This document shows positions 1 through 58,725 of a stretch of DNA of 64,000 nt, piece after piece (position 1 is the stretch's first letter; every line of letters begins with the position of its first letter). The notes beneath the pieces were generated by a model. The model saw nothing but the letters and a program-made list of their open reading frames with translations, did not search any database and was not told the DNA's origin. This DNA comes from Litoreibacter meonggei (GTDB taxonomy: Bacteria > Pseudomonadota > Alphaproteobacteria > Rhodobacterales > Rhodobacteraceae): NCBI RefSeq assembly GCF_003663885.1, contig NZ_RCCE01000001.1:682001-746000 (forward strand), read 5' to 3'. A program made the position numbers and the translations under genes.

Positions 1-3000
1 CCAAGCGCGCCGAAACCTTCAGCATCATGATCCCGCCCCCCAACGTCACCGGCGTCTTGCATATGGGTCACGCCTTCAACAACACGTTGCAGGACATCCT
101 GATCCGTTGGAAACGCATGCAAGGCTACGACACGCTCTGGCAGGCAGGCACCGACCACGCAGGTATAGCGACCCAGATGGTAGTGGAGCGTGAACTGGCC
201 AAAGACGGCAAGAAGCGCACCGACATGACCCGCCCCGAGTTTCTGGAGCATGTCTGGGCGTGGAAAGAACAATCCGGCGGCACCATCCGAGATCAGCTCA
301 AACGCCTCGGCGCGTCGTGTGATTGGTCGCGCGAAGCCTTTACCATGTCCGGCAACTTCCCCGACGCGGTGATCAAAGTCTTCGTCGAGATGTATAACAA
401 AGGCCTGATCTATCGCGGCAAACGCCTCGTCAATTGGGACCCGCATTTCGAGACCGCGATCTCCGATCTGGAGGTCGAGAATATCGAAACCTCCGGCCAT
501 ATGTGGCACTTCAAATACCCGCTGGCGGGCGGCGAAACCTACGAATATGTCGAGAAGGACGAGGACGGAAACGTCACCCTGCGCGAGACCCGCGACTACA
601 TCTCCATCGCCACCACGCGGCCCGAAACCATGCTGGGCGACGGCGCGGTTGCGGTTCATCCAACAGATGAGCGTTATGCGCCAATCGTTGGAAAACTATG
701 CGAAATTCCCGTTGGACCGAAAGAGCATCGCCGCCTGATCCCGATCATCACCGACGAATACCCCGACAAGAATTTCGGCTCCGGCGCGGTGAAAATCACC
801 GGCGCGCATGACTTCAACGACTACCAGGTCGCCAAGCGCGGCGGCATCCCGATGTATAACCTGATGGACACGAAAGGCGCGATGCGATCTGACGGCAAGC
901 CCTACGCTGAGGAAGCCGCCGTGGCGCAAGAGATCGCCAATGGCGAGCGCGAGTTCGGCGAGCGTATGGTCGCCGCAATGAACCTCGTCCCGGACGCCTA
1001 TCGCGGCATGGACCGGTTCGAGGCCCGCAAAGCCGTGGTCGAGGATATCACCAACGAAGGGCTGGCCGTCATGGTCTCCGTCCCCGTGATCGACGAGGAG
1101 GACGGGCAGGAAAGCTCCAAGCTGGTGCCTTACGTCGAAAACAAGCCGATCATGCAACCCTTCGGCGACCGCTCGAAGGTGGTGATCGAGCCGATGCTGA
1201 CCGACCAATGGTTCGTGGAGACCGACAAGATCGTCGGCCCTGCTTTGGATGCGGTGCGCAATGGCGACGTGAAGATCATGCCCGACAGCGGCGAGAAGGT
1301 GTATTTCCACTGGCTGGAAAACATCGAGCCTTGGTGCATTTCACGCCAGCTCTGGTGGGGCCATCAAATCCCCGTCTGGTACGGCTTCGACCTGAATGCC
1401 GCAGGCTTCAAGGACGATGAAGGCGACGGCGATCTGGATTCGGTAGAGATTGGCCGTTTGCTAACCAACGACGCCATCGCCGCCAACCCCGATGTGCATC
1501 ACTGCGCGACAGAATTTGACGGCGTCACCGGACAGTTCGAAAACATTCTGGCAAAGCTGCCGATGCCCCTGAACCACGCGCGCCCGGTCGAGGTCGCCGA
1601 CCGCGCCGAGGCGCTGCACCAGTTCGCGACAGGTCTGGCGGAATATAACGTCACCCAAGACCCGACGAAGCTGGTCTACCCGATCTGGCGCGACGCAGAC
1701 GTGCTGGACACGTGGTTCTCTTCTGGCCTCTGGCCCATCGGAACGCTCGGCTGGCCCGAACAGACGCCGGAACTCGCGAAATATTTCCCGACCTCCACCT
1801 TGGTCACGGGGCAGGACATCCTGTTCTTCTGGGTCGCTCGCATGATGATGATGCAACTTGCGGTTGTGGACCAAATCCCGTTCGACACAGTCTACCTGCA
1901 TGGCCTCGTGCGCGACGCCAAAGGCAAGAAGATGTCGAAATCCACCGGCAATGTGGTCGACCCGCTGGAGATCATCGACGAATACGGCGCCGACGCCCTG
2001 CGCTTCACCAACGCGGCCATGGCGTCGCTCGGCGGCGTGCTGAAAATGGATATGCAACGCATCGCCGGTTACCGCAATTTCGGCACCAAACTGTGGAACG
2101 CCGTGCGCTTCGCCGAAATGAACGAGGCCTACGGCTTGCCCGACACAAAGCCGACGCAAAGCCGACGCCCCGCAGACCTCGAATTTACGGTCAATAAATG
2201 GATCGTGGGAGAGACCGCCAAGGTCCGGATGGAGGTCGATCAGGCGCTTGAAAGCTACCGCTTTAACGACGCCGCGGACGCCCTTTACAAGTTCGTCTGG
2301 GGCAAGGTCTGCGACTGGTATGTGGAGTTCTCAAAGCCGCTTCTGCTCGATGGAACCGACGCCGAAAAGCTTGAGACCCGCGCGACCATGGCATGGGTGC
2401 TGGACCAGTGCATGATCCTTCTGCACCCGATCATGCCCTTCATCACCGAAGAGCTTTGGGGCGAGACCGCCAAGCGCGACAATATGCTTGTCCATCAGGA
2501 TTGGCCCACTTATGGCGCTGAATTAGTTGATAAAAATGCCGACGCGGAAATGAACTGGGTGATCTCACTCATCGACACAGTTCGCTCTGCACGCGGTGAA
2601 ATGCACGTCCCCGCTGGCCTCAAGGTGCCGCTGGTTCAGGTCGATCTCGACCCCGCAGGCCGCACCGCTTTCGCTAATAACGACGCCTTGATCCTCAAGC
2701 TCGCCCGCATCGAAGGCGTCACCGAAGGCCCCGCGCCAAAAGGCTCCGTCACGATCCCCGTGGCGGGCGGCAGCTTCGCGCTGCCCCTGGCGGGCATCAT
2801 CGACGTGGATGAAGAAAAAGCGCGGCTGGAGAAAACTTTAGGTAAACTGGCCAAGGAGTTAGGCGGTTTGCGAGGCCGCCTCAACAACCCCAAATTCGCC
2901 GAAATCGCCCCCGCCGACGTGGTCGAAGAGGCTCGCGAAAACCTTGCTGCGCGCGAGGAAGAAGAGGGCAAATTGAAAACCGCACTCGCAAGGCTGGCTG

Positions 3001-3011
3001 AATTGGGATGA
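1..3011 (+). CDS. valS: Valine--tRNA ligase (5' truncated by window edge)
   Basis: Charges tRNA-Val with valine in the cytoplasm. The reading frame is open to the window edge (codons from base 3), and the residues AETFSI lie upstream of the first ATG at 27, so that ATG is internal and the true start lies outside. Seen: the class I HIGH signature (LHMGHAF) right after the IPPPNVTG motif typical of ValRS, the KMSKS loop ([10 protein letters not shown]) near residue 640 of the visible part, and a large CP1 editing insert between them. The C-terminal about 65 residues form a charged helical arm ([19 protein letters not shown]), the tRNA-binding coiled coil of ValRS. An inverted repeat follows the stop codon and the next gene is convergent. 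The identification is firm. Confidence 0.97.
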
Positions 3012-54132: not shown

Positions 54133-55599
54133 GTGACCAAGGCAATCATGATACAGGGTGCTGGCTCAAATGTGGGCAAGTCCATGATCGTGGCCGGGCT
54201 TTGCCGCGTTTTCGCGCGGCGCGGCCTGACGGTCCGTCCCTTTAAGCCTCAAAATATGTCCAACAATGCCGCAGTAACGTCAGATGGTGGTGAAATCGGG
54301 CGCGCGCAAGCCTTGCAGGCCCTTGCCTGCGGTACCGCCGCGCATACCGATATGAATCCCGTCCTGTTGAAACCAGAAAGCGATGTTGGCGCACAGGTGA
54401 TCGTCCAGGGCAAACGGTTCGCCACGCTAAAAGCGCGCGACTATGCCAAGGCGAAACCCGAACTGCTCTCGAAAACCCTAGAGAGTTTTCATCGCCTTGC
54501 CAAAACCGCCGAGCTGATTGTCATCGAAGGGGCCGGGAGCCCCGCCGAAATAAATCTGCGCAGCGGCGACATTGCCAATATGGGATTTGCCGAGGCCGCC
54601 GCCATCCCCGTAATCTTGGTGGGCGACATCGACCGGGGCGGTGTTATCGCACAGATCGTTGGCACTCATTGCGTGTTGCCTGACTGTGACCGAGATCGCA
54701 TTAAAGCTTTCATGATCAACAAGTTCAGAGGCGATGTCAGCTTGTTTGACGACGGCATGACCGAGATAACCGATCGCACTGACTGGACACCACTTGGTGT
54801 CCTGCCATGGTTTGCTGATGCATGGCAACTTCCGGCGGAGGACGTGATGGACATCACATCAACCAGCCGCAGCGGTGACGTCTTGAAGGTTGTCGTACCC
54901 AAGCTGTCCCGCATCGCAAATTTCGACGATCTTGACCCGCTGGCAATAGAGCCCGGTGTTTCAGTCGAGATAATAGAACCCGGTCGCCCCCTGCCCTCTG
55001 ATGCAGATTTGGTTCTGATCCCCGGATCGAAATCCACCATCGGTGATTTAGCATTTTTTCGCGCTCAAGGTTGGGACGTCGACTTATATGGCCATGTCCG
55101 GCGTGGCGGGCATGTTTTGGGGATTTGTGGCGGCTATCAAATGCTTGGCCACACAATTTCTGATCCTGATGGCATCGAGGGTGCGAAAGGCTCCGTGCAG
55201 GGGCTGGGATTACTGAACGTCGAAACCACCATGGCGCCAAAGAAACATCTGGCCGATGTGAAAGGTGTACATCTGAAATCCGGCGCGGCTGTTACCGGTT
55301 ACGAAATCCACATCGGCACCACCGATGGCCCCGATACGGAAAGTGCTTGGTTGCAGATCGACGGAAAGGTAGCCGGGGCCGCGTCCAACAATGGGAAGAT
55401 TCAGGGTTGCTACATTCATGGATTGTTTACGTCCGACGACTTCAGGCGGACCTACTTGGAACAGCTGGGCGGCACATCACAAATCAGCGACTACGGCGCA
55501 TCTGTTGATGCGGCATTGGACGCTTTGGCCGACCATTTGGAAGTACATTTGGATATAGAAAAGATCTTCGACTTAGCCGAAGACGTCAAAAACAGCTAA
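54133..55599 (+). CDS. cobQ: Cobyric acid synthase
   Basis: 488 aa. Amidates cobyrinic acid a,c-diamide at four positions in cobalamin synthesis. Starts with GTG at 54133 (GGAG upstream; the ATG two bases earlier is out of frame and stops at once). Seen: MIQGAGSNVGKSMIVAGLCR (P-loop), PFKPQNMSNNAAVTSDGGEI, IEGAGSPAEINL near residue 135, the LIPGSKSTIGDLAF segment near 298 and GHVLGICGGYQMLG near 330 (glutaminase Cys). No other cobalamin gene is nearby. Confidence 0.96.
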   Translation: MTKAIMIQGAGSNVGKSMIVAGLCRVFARRGLTVRPFKPQNMSNNAAVTSDGGEIGRAQALQALACGTAAHTDMNPVLLKPESDVGAQVIVQGKRFATLKARDYAKAKPELLSKTLESFHRLAKTAELIVIEGAGSPAEINLRSGDIANMGFAEAAAIPVILVGDIDRGGVIAQIVGTHCVLPDCDRDRIKAFMINKFRGDVSLFDDGMTEITDRTDWTPLGVLPWFADAWQLPAEDVMDITSTSRSGDVLKVVVPKLSRIANFDDLDPLAIEPGVSVEIIEPGRPLPSDADLVLIPGSKSTIGDLAFFRAQGWDVDLYGHVRRGGHVLGICGGYQMLGHTISDPDGIEGAKGSVQGLGLLNVETTMAPKKHLADVKGVHLKSGAAVTGYEIHIGTTDGPDTESAWLQIDGKVAGAASNNGKIQGCYIHGLFTSDDFRRTYLEQLGGTSQISDYGASVDAALDALADHLEVHLDIEKIFDLAEDVKNS

Positions 55600-55602
55600 A
55601 CG

Positions 55603-56562
55603 CTATTCAAATTCGCGGGTTAGCAAAGCACGATGAATTTCGCGGCGGACCAGTTTGCGGACGTTGCGGGTAATCCGCTCTCCCAATTCACCTGTAAGTT
55701 CCTGACGCACAATCTCGGCGACGAGGTCACGTAATACGGCCTCATCAATCACGCTATCATCGAAATCAGCGAGACTGGCGTTCGGCGTGTCATGATCACC
55801 GTCGCCGTCAATGACCGACGCGGCAGCTGCAGAAGCAAAAACAGATTCGTCTATCAAAGACGCATCATCTGTCGGGTCAGCGTCATTCGTAACGCGCCAC
55901 TCATCGCTTGCCTCGTCTGCGTCGGTCTCACGAGATTTCTGTTCAGAGCCAGCAATATCCGTAGTTTCAGCTTTTACAGTCTCAGCAACGGTGCCTTCGC
56001 TCGCGCGCTCGTCAGATGACATCTCAGAAGTCTTAGCCGCATCTTCAATCAACTTATCAACAGGGTTGCCTTGCTCCGGCTCAACCTCATCAACGAGTTC
56101 CGGCTCCCAGGTGTTGTTGGCATCCGAAAACCCGGCGGCAGCGGGTTCTGTTCGGCGGCTGTGTCGGATGAAATCAATTACTGGCGTAGGCTCAGGCTGA
56201 ACGTCATCTTCGTAATAGTCGTCATTCGCCAACGAAGACCAGTCCGCATGATGCGCAGCGGGTTCCTTAGAGCCGTCCCTCTCAGACTGGGTATCGTCTG
56301 TCAGGGTTTGACGGAAATTCGTCATGTCAGCATGACGGAACTCGGGCACCGAATCCTCAGAAAGGGTTTTCACCCGAAGGGCAGATGTAAGAATCAGCGC
56401 ATCTACTGGTTTCGCAGCTTCCTGCTCCACGTCGGAAGGTACCTCTGATGACACCTCAGGCGCTTTAGTTTCTTGGCGATCGTCTGGCTTGGTGTCCGAC
56501 ACTAGCCTGCGAATGGACGACAGGACATCTTCCACGTCTACGTTGGTCCCCGGATCAGACAT
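55603..56562 (-). CDS. PopZ-like polar organising protein candidate
   Basis: 319 aa. N-terminal amphipathic helix NVDVEDVLSSIRRLVSDTKP closely resembles the PopZ N-terminal motif (E-E-I-L-A-S-I-R-R-I-I). A very acidic, low-complexity linker follows (residues about 30-265, rich in Asp, Glu, Ala, Ser). The C-terminus, VLRDLVAEIVRQELTGELGE then RITRNVRKLVRREIHRALLT, has the pattern of the PopZ oligomerisation helices. Its place beside tolC and pcm matches the popZ neighbourhood I recall from other Alphaproteobacteria. If correct it scaffolds a cell pole. Convergent with cobQ with 3 bases between the stops. Confidence 0.65.
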   Translation of the reverse strand: MSDPGTNVDVEDVLSSIRRLVSDTKPDDRQETKAPEVSSEVPSDVEQEAAKPVDALILTSALRVKTLSEDSVPEFRHADMTNFRQTLTDDTQSERDGSKEPAAHHADWSSLANDDYYEDDVQPEPTPVIDFIRHSRRTEPAAAGFSDANNTWEPELVDEVEPEQGNPVDKLIEDAAKTSEMSSDERASEGTVAETVKAETTDIAGSEQKSRETDADEASDEWRVTNDADPTDDASLIDESVFASAAAASVIDGDGDHDTPNASLADFDDSVIDEAVLRDLVAEIVRQELTGELGERITRNVRKLVRREIHRALLTREFE

Positions 56563-56633: not shown

Positions 56634-57995
56634 TCAGTTCTTTTGGTAACGTTTCAAAATGCGGTCCAGCTTCTTGCCTGCCTTGGAACTTGGTACTGGG
56701 GCGTTCTTGACCGCATTATAGTACTCGGCAGGATCGTAGCGCTTCACATTAAGCTTGAGGTTGTCCGCAGTTAGCAACCCCATAGAAGCCAACAGGCCGT
56801 AAGCCGCTGAATAAACCTGTGTTTCCGACACGACACGCGTCGTGCGTGCATCAAACAAGGCCTGCTCGGCGTCCAGAACGTCCAATGTCGTCCTAGCTCC
56901 GAGTTTTGCCTCTTCGCGCACACCGTCAAACGCAATCTGTGCTGCACGAATCTGGCGATCAGCCGACGTTACTTGAGCGTTCGCCACCGCAAGCCGTGAC
57001 CACGCGTTGGCAACATTTTGATCCAGTACAATAGCTGTCTGGTTCAATGCTGCTTTCGAACCATGTACTGCCGCCAAGGATTTTCGCACCAACGCGGACA
57101 GTTGCCCGCCTTGGTAGATTGGCACGTTCATCTCCAAGCCGATGCTGGAGGTATTGTTATTCACCGACGAATGCGAAAGCCCACTGTTAAACGTAATCCG
57201 AGGGCGCGTCCCTGCCTTGGCCGCCGCATAGTTCAGTTCATTCGCCTTGATCAGGTGTTGCACTTGTTCGATCAACGGACTGACCTGCTTGGCCGTCGCT
57301 TTCGCGGCGTTCAAGGACTTAGGCAGTTTCGGCAGTCTCGAGATGCCCTTCAGGCCAGAGGGCGCGCGCCCAACTGAGACTGTATACAATTCCTGCGTGA
57401 TCTGGAGATTGCCTTGCGATTCGACCAATGCACCCCGTGCCTGCGCTAGCCTTGCTTCAGCCTGCGCCACATCCGTGCGGGTTACCTCCCCGACTTCGAA
57501 CCTATCACGGGCCGCGCGCAATTCTTGAGTGATCAAGCGAAGGTTGCTTTCACGCAGCTGAACCACGCGCTGGTCCCGCAGAACTTGCACGTAGGCATTC
57601 ACAGCATCCAGCAACACCACCTGCTCTTGCTGACTAAGCTCGGCACGAACCGCTAGGACCGTTTCCTTGGCAGACTCGACCGCAAGCTGGGTACGCCCAG
57701 CGTCCCAGAGCAGCAGCTCCAGCGTCAGCGCGATCGTCGAGGATAGATTGTCCCTCGCGGCGGTGGGATTGCTTAAAGTGATTGTCGAGCGGGCGTTGAT
57801 ATTTGGCAGCAATCCCGACAAGGCAATTGCAACGTCCTCATCTTCGGCACGCAACGTGGCGCGGCTCTGTTCCAGCAAGTTCGAATTATCGTATGCCGCC
57901 GTCAACGCGCCCGCGAGCGTTTCCGCCGAGGCCTGAACAGGAGACAAACTCAAAGTTATCCCAAAGAATACACTGCTCAGAAAACGTTGTTTCAT
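56634..57995 (-). CDS. tolC: TolC family outer membrane channel
   Basis: 453 aa. Signal peptide MKQRFLSSVFFGITLSLSPVQASA. Two outer-membrane-factor repeats of long helices: ALTAAYDNSNLLEQSRATLR near residue 30, QAEARLAQARGALVESQGNL near 185, and the second half with LDVLDAEQALFDARTTRV near 375. Exit duct for type I secretion or efflux pumps. AGGTAGG ribosome binding site. Part of pcm-tolC-popZ-like, read in that order. Confidence 0.92.
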   Translation of the reverse strand: MKQRFLSSVFFGITLSLSPVQASAETLAGALTAAYDNSNLLEQSRATLRAEDEDVAIALSGLLPNINARSTITLSNPTAARDNLSSTIALTLELLLWDAGRTQLAVESAKETVLAVRAELSQQEQVVLLDAVNAYVQVLRDQRVVQLRESNLRLITQELRAARDRFEVGEVTRTDVAQAEARLAQARGALVESQGNLQITQELYTVSVGRAPSGLKGISRLPKLPKSLNAAKATAKQVSPLIEQVQHLIKANELNYAAAKAGTRPRITFNSGLSHSSVNNNTSSIGLEMNVPIYQGGQLSALVRKSLAAVHGSKAALNQTAIVLDQNVANAWSRLAVANAQVTSADRQIRAAQIAFDGVREEAKLGARTTLDVLDAEQALFDARTTRVVSETQVYSAAYGLLASMGLLTADNLKLNVKRYDPAEYYNAVKNAPVPSSKAGKKLDRILKRYQKN

Positions 57996-58071: not shown

Positions 58072-58725
58072 TTAAAGCGCGAACACGGCCTCGGAGGTAA
58101 AGCCCGGAAGGACCGGTGCACCCGCGTTAAACGAAAGAGTCCAGCTCACTTTATCGCCAATCTTACGGCCCAAGCGCGCCTCGCCGAGTTTACTCTGGCC
58201 GAAGATCGCAAGAATGCGTCCCCCTTCCTTGAGCTGCCCCAGCACCTCGTCTGGGATTTGGGATACGGCTCCCTCAATGCAAATGGCATCATAAGGACCA
58301 TGTTTAGCAGCTCCCTTGGCCAGTGGCGCGGAAATCACAACCGCATTGTCGATCCCTTGCTCTGCCAAGGCCGCTTCTGCGTCGCGCGCCAAATCTTCGT
58401 CCTCTTCGACCGCGACAACCGCATCCGCCATATGCGCTAAAACGGCTGATGAATACCCAAGCCCACAGCCGATATCGAGCACGACATCGCTGCGTTGAAT
58501 ATCTAGAGCATCAAGCATTTTCGCAAATGTGCGTGGTTCAAGAACAACGCGTCCACCACCGAGGTCGATATTTCCCCCGGCATATGCGACGTTCCGCTTG
58601 CTTTCGGGCACAAACGCCTCTCGGCGTACCGTTAGCATGGCGTCGATAATCGGGAACTTGGTGACATCAGAGGGCCGCACTTGCGTGTCGACCATCATTG
58701 TTCGGTTTGTAGCGTTGTCGAGCAT
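58072..58725 (-). CDS. Protein-L-isoaspartate O-methyltransferase family
   Basis: 217 aa. Seen: MMVDTQVRPSDVTKFPIID at the start (the alphaproteobacterial variant), VVLDIGCGLGYSSAVLA near residue 78 (SAM motif I), VVAVEEDEDLARDAEAAL near 98 and YDAICIEGAVSQIPDEVLGQ near 145. The classical Pcm substrate motif is less clear, so it may have a different target. The 76 bases to the tolC start hold no gene. Confidence 0.82.
   Translation of the reverse strand: MLDNATNRTMMVDTQVRPSDVTKFPIIDAMLTVRREAFVPESKRNVAYAGGNIDLGGGRVVLEPRTFAKMLDALDIQRSDVVLDIGCGLGYSSAVLAHMADAVVAVEEDEDLARDAEAALAEQGIDNAVVISAPLAKGAAKHGPYDAICIEGAVSQIPDEVLGQLKEGGRILAIFGQSKLGEARLGRKIGDKVSWTLSFNAGAPVLPGFTSEAVFAL

Follow-up and report, generated by a model that had tools for sequence, protein, structure and literature searches.

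The popZ-like gene and its neighbours

The window is the whole stretch of DNA that was analysed, 64,000 nucleotides of the Litoreibacter meonggei genome. It holds an open reading frame of 319 amino acids, termed gene X here, flanked by genes of recognisable families. The features discussed below are as follows, in window coordinates.

3..3011, plus strand: valS, with its 5' end beyond the window (PF00133 and PF10458)
54133..55599, plus strand: cobQ-like gene, convergent to X and 3 bases apart from it (PF07685, E 9.1e-55)
55603..56562, minus strand: popZ-like gene X, 319 aa, ATG-start open reading frame
55609..55743, minus strand: predicted C-terminal helical domain of oligomerisation type, X residues 274-318 (hhalign to canonical PopZ; AlphaFold2)
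55744..56490, minus strand: acidic, predicted disordered linker, X residues 25-273 (composition; no predicted helix of 4 or more residues inside)
56101..56109, minus strand: WEP of the family mid-linker motif, X residues 152-154 (WEP[DE] counts against shuffles)
56371..56397, minus strand: short linear motif LILTSALRV, X residues 56-64 (L.LT counts against shuffles)
56494..56544, minus strand: predicted N-terminal helix, X residues 7-23, holding EDVLSSIRRLVSD (AlphaFold2; N-terminal profile match; PopZ_fam match)
56634..57995, minus strand: tolC-like outer membrane efflux gene, OEP family (PF02321, E 2.9e-51; conserved neighbour)
58072..58725, minus strand: pcm-like gene, PCMT family (PF01135, E 7e-33; conserved neighbour)

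X stands beside tolC and pcm, as the initial annotation had noted; both lie directly upstream on the same strand, with a gap of 71 bases between tolC and X. The valS gene, which that annotation placed about 52 kb away, sits at the start of the window, approximately 52.6 kb from X. The closest named-species relatives of X are from L. ascidiaceicola (88%, over a C-terminal stretch) and L. albidus (83%), in a comparison from which records of the same genome may have been excluded.

PopZ is a cell-pole organiser in many alphaproteobacteria and serves as a model polar organiser and condensate. The predicted layout of X is that of PopZ, with an N-terminal helix, a long acidic disordered linker and two C-terminal helices. 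An AlphaFold2 monomer model places helices at residues 7-23, 274-290 and 292-318 and no further helix of 4 or more residues; its overall confidence is low (mean pLDDT 55.7, pTM 0.22), with values of 84-93 in the C-terminal ten-residue blocks. The PopZ-type N-terminal helix and the helical C-terminus proposed in the initial annotation both reappear in this model. The former contains EDVLSSIRRLVSD at residues 11-23, which is kept across the family and where canonical PopZ rows read EEILASIRRIISE. The linker had been described as strongly acidic and about 230 residues long. Its acidity holds (26% acidic residues, net charge -0.18 per residue, 6% proline), while its length is 249 residues with the bounds that we set ourselves at residues 25 and 273.

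Relationship of gene X to PopZ

Among Pfam models X matches DUF2497 alone (PF10691; 15.7 bits, E 0.022, residues 273-312), below the gathering score of 27, and among NCBIfam models it matches PopZ_fam alone (NF052660; 23.5 bits, E 1.1e-4, residues 11-105 on profile positions 5-94), below the cut-off of 125. By curated cut-offs, X is not a member of either family. Such weak single-sequence scores are what an unrelated acidic low-complexity protein might give if its helical ends resembled PopZ by chance or convergence, a reading that we consider very improbable in light of the comparisons below.

The C-terminal profile of the X family aligns with that of canonical PopZ over 42 columns without a gap (hhalign probability 93.9, E 1.6e-7). 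The input comprised the 75 C-terminal residues of X and of 52 other family members, set against the 100 C-terminal residues of 38 of the 40 canonical proteins, two being too short as delimited. The family rows omit eight of 60 Rhodobacteraceae loci, namely the canonical L132, L133 and L134 and the odd L143, L146, L148, L150 and L151. The real alignment scores 41.3; none of 200 shuffles of the 48 C-terminal columns reaches this value (best 21.0), and the reversed profile scores 12.5. Cyclic rotations of the domain columns score up to 42.0, level with the real profile, but this control is uninformative because rotations keep most of the block contiguous.

At the N-terminus, the family and canonical profiles match with a probability of 97.7 and an E-value of 1.4e-12, which is inflated because the rows (47 of 53 family, 37 of 40 canonical) were selected with a motif pattern. 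PopZ_fam provides a fairer, unselected test and matches 30 of 41 family members at E<=0.01; DUF2497 matches 32 of 41 at E<=0.05, and one clear X family member, G022, exceeds the DUF2497 cut-off at 27.6 bits. Similarity is thus present at both ends, each of which is conserved across the family, and the profile match exceeds the shuffle control. Canonical PopZ and X also have a third element in common, an L-x-L-T motif found in 43 of 48 X-family linkers (shuffle maximum 7) and 26 of 37 canonical linkers (shuffle maximum 4), in forms such as LVLTPALRV in the X family and DDVLELTEVV in canonical PopZ. The elements that X shares with PopZ are therefore the N-terminal EDVLSSIRRLVSE/EEILASIRRIISE helix, which is of the client-binding type at the level of sequence, the L-x-L-T motif, the acidic disordered linker and the gapless C-terminal helix pair. 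Chance resemblance was rejected on the shuffles, the reversed profile and synteny.

A rebuilt C-terminal domain and a longer linker

The C-terminal domain differs from its canonical counterpart at the very core, where WLDxNLP of canonical PopZ is replaced by GxLGERITRN in the X family. Over a 36-residue stretch of the domain, tryptophan is present in 39 of 39 canonical proteins and in none of 53 X-family proteins, and proline in 39 of 39 and 5 of 53, respectively; the canonical core with both residues (LKEWLDxNLP) is absent from the X family. The net charge of the same 36 residues averages -1.9 in canonical PopZ (-5 to +1, n=39) and +3.8 in the X family (+2 to +6, n=53). These 53 main rows omit odd and weak loci. 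A further 25 weaker loci of the new type have charges of -4 to +6 over the last 50 residues, a different measure from the 36-residue charge, and contain one tryptophan (in G118), so the charge flip belongs to the main group rather than to every member. The PopZ oligomerisation domain is called highly conserved across alphaproteobacteria in a passage of PMC9512792, and the X family is an exception.

Since the tryptophan is lost and the proline mostly lost, assembly may differ or be lost. This raises the alternative that X, although a descendant of popZ, has given up pole organisation and become an adaptor with another task, for example at the envelope together with the adjacent tolC and pcm products. 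We regard this as unlikely. A domain that lacks an invariant tryptophan and reverses its charge sign in the 53 main rows speaks for such a shift, while the N-terminal helix, still highly conserved, speaks against it.

X-family linkers have a median length of 263 residues (112-413, n=48 of 53) compared with 146 in canonical proteins (92-246, n=37 of 40). The initial annotation had called the linker of X far longer than usual, which is correct relative to other orders; within the Rhodobacteraceae its length is ordinary. Acidity is equal in the two groups at 25%, and proline amounts to 10% in the X family versus 16.5% in canonical PopZ; for Caulobacterales, PMC9512792 contains two different figures for proline, 23% and 29%. 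A compensation between linker length and charge, reported for PopZ in the same source, is not seen in the X family, where length and acidic fraction are uncorrelated (rho -0.01). The rebuilt C-terminal domain, together with the longer linker, would cause standard models to miss X.

The middle of the linker carries WEP[DE] in 26 of 48 X-family sequences (shuffle maximum 3) and in 0 of 37 canonical sequences. This stretch often ends in WEPDG and is a candidate new interaction motif (window 56101-56109).

Conservation of gene place

We compared gene order around 40 canonical loci, which are high scorers on long contigs among 223 genomes rather than a random sample, and 80 Rhodobacteraceae loci (60 plus 20 mostly weak ones; three carry canonical PopZ). 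Upstream of canonical popZ, pcm is present in 40 of 40 loci and tolC is the immediate neighbour in 35; valS follows no more than 2.1 kb downstream in 34. This agrees with the neighbourhood described in the initial annotation. The pcm-tolC order is shared by the Rhodobacteraceae loci, with tolC directly upstream in 76 and pcm in 78; valS is within 2.1 kb in 7, and a convergent cobQ is present in 32. In 20 named genomes taken from a separate set of 80, pcm precedes X in all 20 and tolC in 19, the exception being Salipiger pallidus. X therefore stands after pcm and tolC as canonical popZ does, while valS has mostly moved away from it. That tolC and pcm also adjoin canonical popZ weakens the case for an envelope adaptor drawn from these neighbours.

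The Rhodobacteraceae genes still linked to valS include two canonical ones (G008 and G017) and five with the new-type domain (G004, G014, G015, G083 and G101). These five new-type loci join the X and canonical families by position. In the window, the pcm-tolC-popZ-valS arrangement is represented by pcm and tolC beside X, and valS is close by in the five new-type relatives. The same gene place, with its valS-linked loci, argues against an unrelated protein.

Distribution across genomes

Of 289 alphaproteobacterial genomes sampled from the whole class, at least four of them Rhodobacteraceae, 223 have a DUF2497 match above the cut-off, compared with only 4 of 149 Rhodobacteraceae. The X protein as a single query finds relatives in 124 of these 149 genomes, and an X-family profile (50 rows, last 60 residues) matches in 132. 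The four Rhodobacteraceae above the DUF2497 cut-off comprise three with canonical PopZ (G008, G017 and G054) and G022, whose match is X itself. G017 and G054 have no X match; the X-profile match in G008 (18.3 bits, with its stop at another place) is probably due to chance. The 149 genomes thus divide into 131 with X, 3 with canonical PopZ and 15 with neither, and none convincingly contains both. X and canonical PopZ are complementary in distribution, a pattern that also argues against an unrelated protein.

The same pattern bears on whether X could be a paralog, with a standard popZ elsewhere in these genomes. In the genome of the window (99.97% complete, 16 contigs), a DUF2497 search at E<=10 recovered X as the sole DUF2497-like place; a second, standard popZ, which would have contradicted the initial annotation, was not found. 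None of five named genomes, including Rhodobacter capsulatus SP108, has DUF2497 above cut-off, and X of SP108 is 508 aa long. Given also that none of the three canonical genomes has a convincing X, we consider a paralog extremely improbable.

We located tolC in 12 of the 15 genomes with neither type. Directly behind it, five genomes (G094, G045, G001, G090 and G033; loci L404, L405, L407, L410 and L411) have short PopZ-like open reading frames of 107-197 aa, which by eye look like PopZ remnants with the C-terminus cut or altered. In G033 (L411), the short frame is followed by a valS-like start. Nothing behind tolC in the other seven genomes was recognised as PopZ-like. The short frames suggest repeated erosion of the gene, and X is dispensable in some lineages, given that neither type was found in 15 of 149 genomes and that the 12 of these with tolC show remnants or nothing recognisable behind it. 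Erosion or absence in some lineages is consistent with a shifted function, as is a passage of PMC8116508 that describes polar growth or a strictly dimorphic life style as missing from some Rhodobacterales.

Similarity at both ends, gene place and distribution thus all support the initial proposal that X is a divergent PopZ counterpart, curated cut-offs notwithstanding. X is almost certainly the Rhodobacteraceae ortholog of popZ. By descent and place it would be a PopZ that the curated cut-offs do not count as one.

Two passages in the literature take a different view, with many Rhodobacterales described as being without a conspicuous PopZ (PMC5182065) and R. sphaeroides taken as a host without PopZ (in the magnetospirillum PopZ paper, PMC6414705). 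No Rhodobacterales PopZ is reported in the accessible portions of the mostly open-access journal literature on PopZ or DUF2497 in Rhodobacterales, Rhodobacter, Roseobacter and Paracoccus. A hidden ortholog in most Rhodobacteraceae would revise this reading of PopZ absence.

Order of events in the TolC and Pcm tree

A rough tree of TolC and Pcm was built for 116 genomes and rooted on one outgroup genome. New-type genomes G004, G083 and G101 (group support 0.20) branch first, followed by the canonical pair G008 and G017 (0.99), G015 and finally all others. Support is 0.56 for the Rhodobacteraceae node and 0.99 for the node of all but G004, G083 and G101. The new-type domain therefore lies on both sides of the canonical pair, contrary to what one rebuilding event would predict. 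Two rebuildings of the domain, transfer or reversion on one side, or an error in the tree would each account for this. The topology contradicts a linear order of the changes, an idea that had been considered and was dropped.

ZitP, a likely partner

The genome of the window encodes a ZitP-type zinc ribbon protein (L272; G000:C6, 1501-2325, plus strand). As in the C. crescentus PopZ-ZitP module, the ribbon keeps C5, C8, C28, C31, R24 and W35. It differs at position 27, a PopZ-binding position, which is glutamine here and in most Rhodobacteraceae ribbons. According to Berge et al. 2016 (PMC5182065), R. sphaeroides ZitP has Q27 and is poorly localised by Caulobacter PopZ, while its Q27R variant is robustly polar.

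We collected 71 Rhodobacteraceae ribbons (30 loci, 40 hand-chosen down the match list, and that of the window's genome). Position 27 is Q in 62 of them, R in 7 and E in 2; since one of the arginines (L289) belongs to another protein, the count is Q in 62 of 70. R24 is retained in 69 of 71 and W35 in 70 of 71, the zinc cysteines being part of the search pattern. This retention of ZitP argues against a PopZ descendant that has left the pole, and the ribbon encoded in the genome of the window counts in favour of reading X as a PopZ. In the 30 best-scoring ZitP loci elsewhere in the class, position 27 is R or K in 29, and the thirtieth was read at the wrong place. R27 therefore does not depend on a recognisable PopZ, as some of these genomes, such as G155 and G164, lack a DUF2497 match.

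The X-family profile reaches 60 bits or more in 51 of 62 Q27 genomes and in none of the 8 that have R or E at this position (Fisher 8e-6, computed from hand-copied scores and without correction for shared ancestry). Among Rhodobacteraceae, R27 is present in G017 and G054, which have canonical PopZ, in G004, G083 and G101, which have the new-type domain with valS near, and in G122, which has neither. In the tree, R27 is found basally and Q27 in the other branches.

These patterns raise the possibility that the Rhodobacteraceae have an orthogonal, co-diverged PopZ-ZitP module, with a rebuilt domain on one side and an R to Q change at position 27 of ZitP on the other. The new-type domain occurs with R27 (G004, G083 and G101) and, with valS still nearby, with Q27 (G015), and R27 also accompanies canonical PopZ (G017 and G054); on this reading the change in the domain would have preceded that in ZitP, and may have happened repeatedly. 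We hold this idea only tentatively; a simple one-way order finds no backing in the tree, which lowered our estimate from somewhat under even to doubtful. If it is true, the failure of R. sphaeroides ZitP with Caulobacter PopZ reflects a changed partner and not a new function. Charge complementarity between ZitP and PopZ was also considered and rejected, since last-50-residue charges overlap between R27 genomes (G004, -2; G083, 0; G101, -1) and a Q27 genome (G015, -4).

A putative polar hub

Taken as a whole, the reading of X as a popZ ortholog in the ancestral gene place, with a rebuilt domain and a longer linker, is very probable. A polar-hub function, which is read from sequence features, we consider probable. 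In such a hub, the C-terminal helices would assemble X into clusters, as its anatomy suggests. The acidic linker would prevent tight packing of these clusters, and client proteins would be recruited through the N-terminal helix, with ZitP as the likely membrane partner. In Caulobacter PopZ, the ParA and ParB sites lie within the first 26 residues, as stated in a passage of PMC5182065. The X family would represent a natural experiment in which a condensate scaffold was rebuilt while its gene context was kept, and it would make the polarity of Roseobacter and Rhodobacter relatives directly testable.

Two observations concern individual loci. The canonical PopZ C-termini of L133 (G008) and L134 (G017) stand on frames of 869 and 628 aa as delimited, far above the other canonical proteins. 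The records L235 and L236, one titled Roseobacter and the other Flavobacteriia, give the same match on contigs alike in number and length, and the Flavobacteriia title appears to be wrong.
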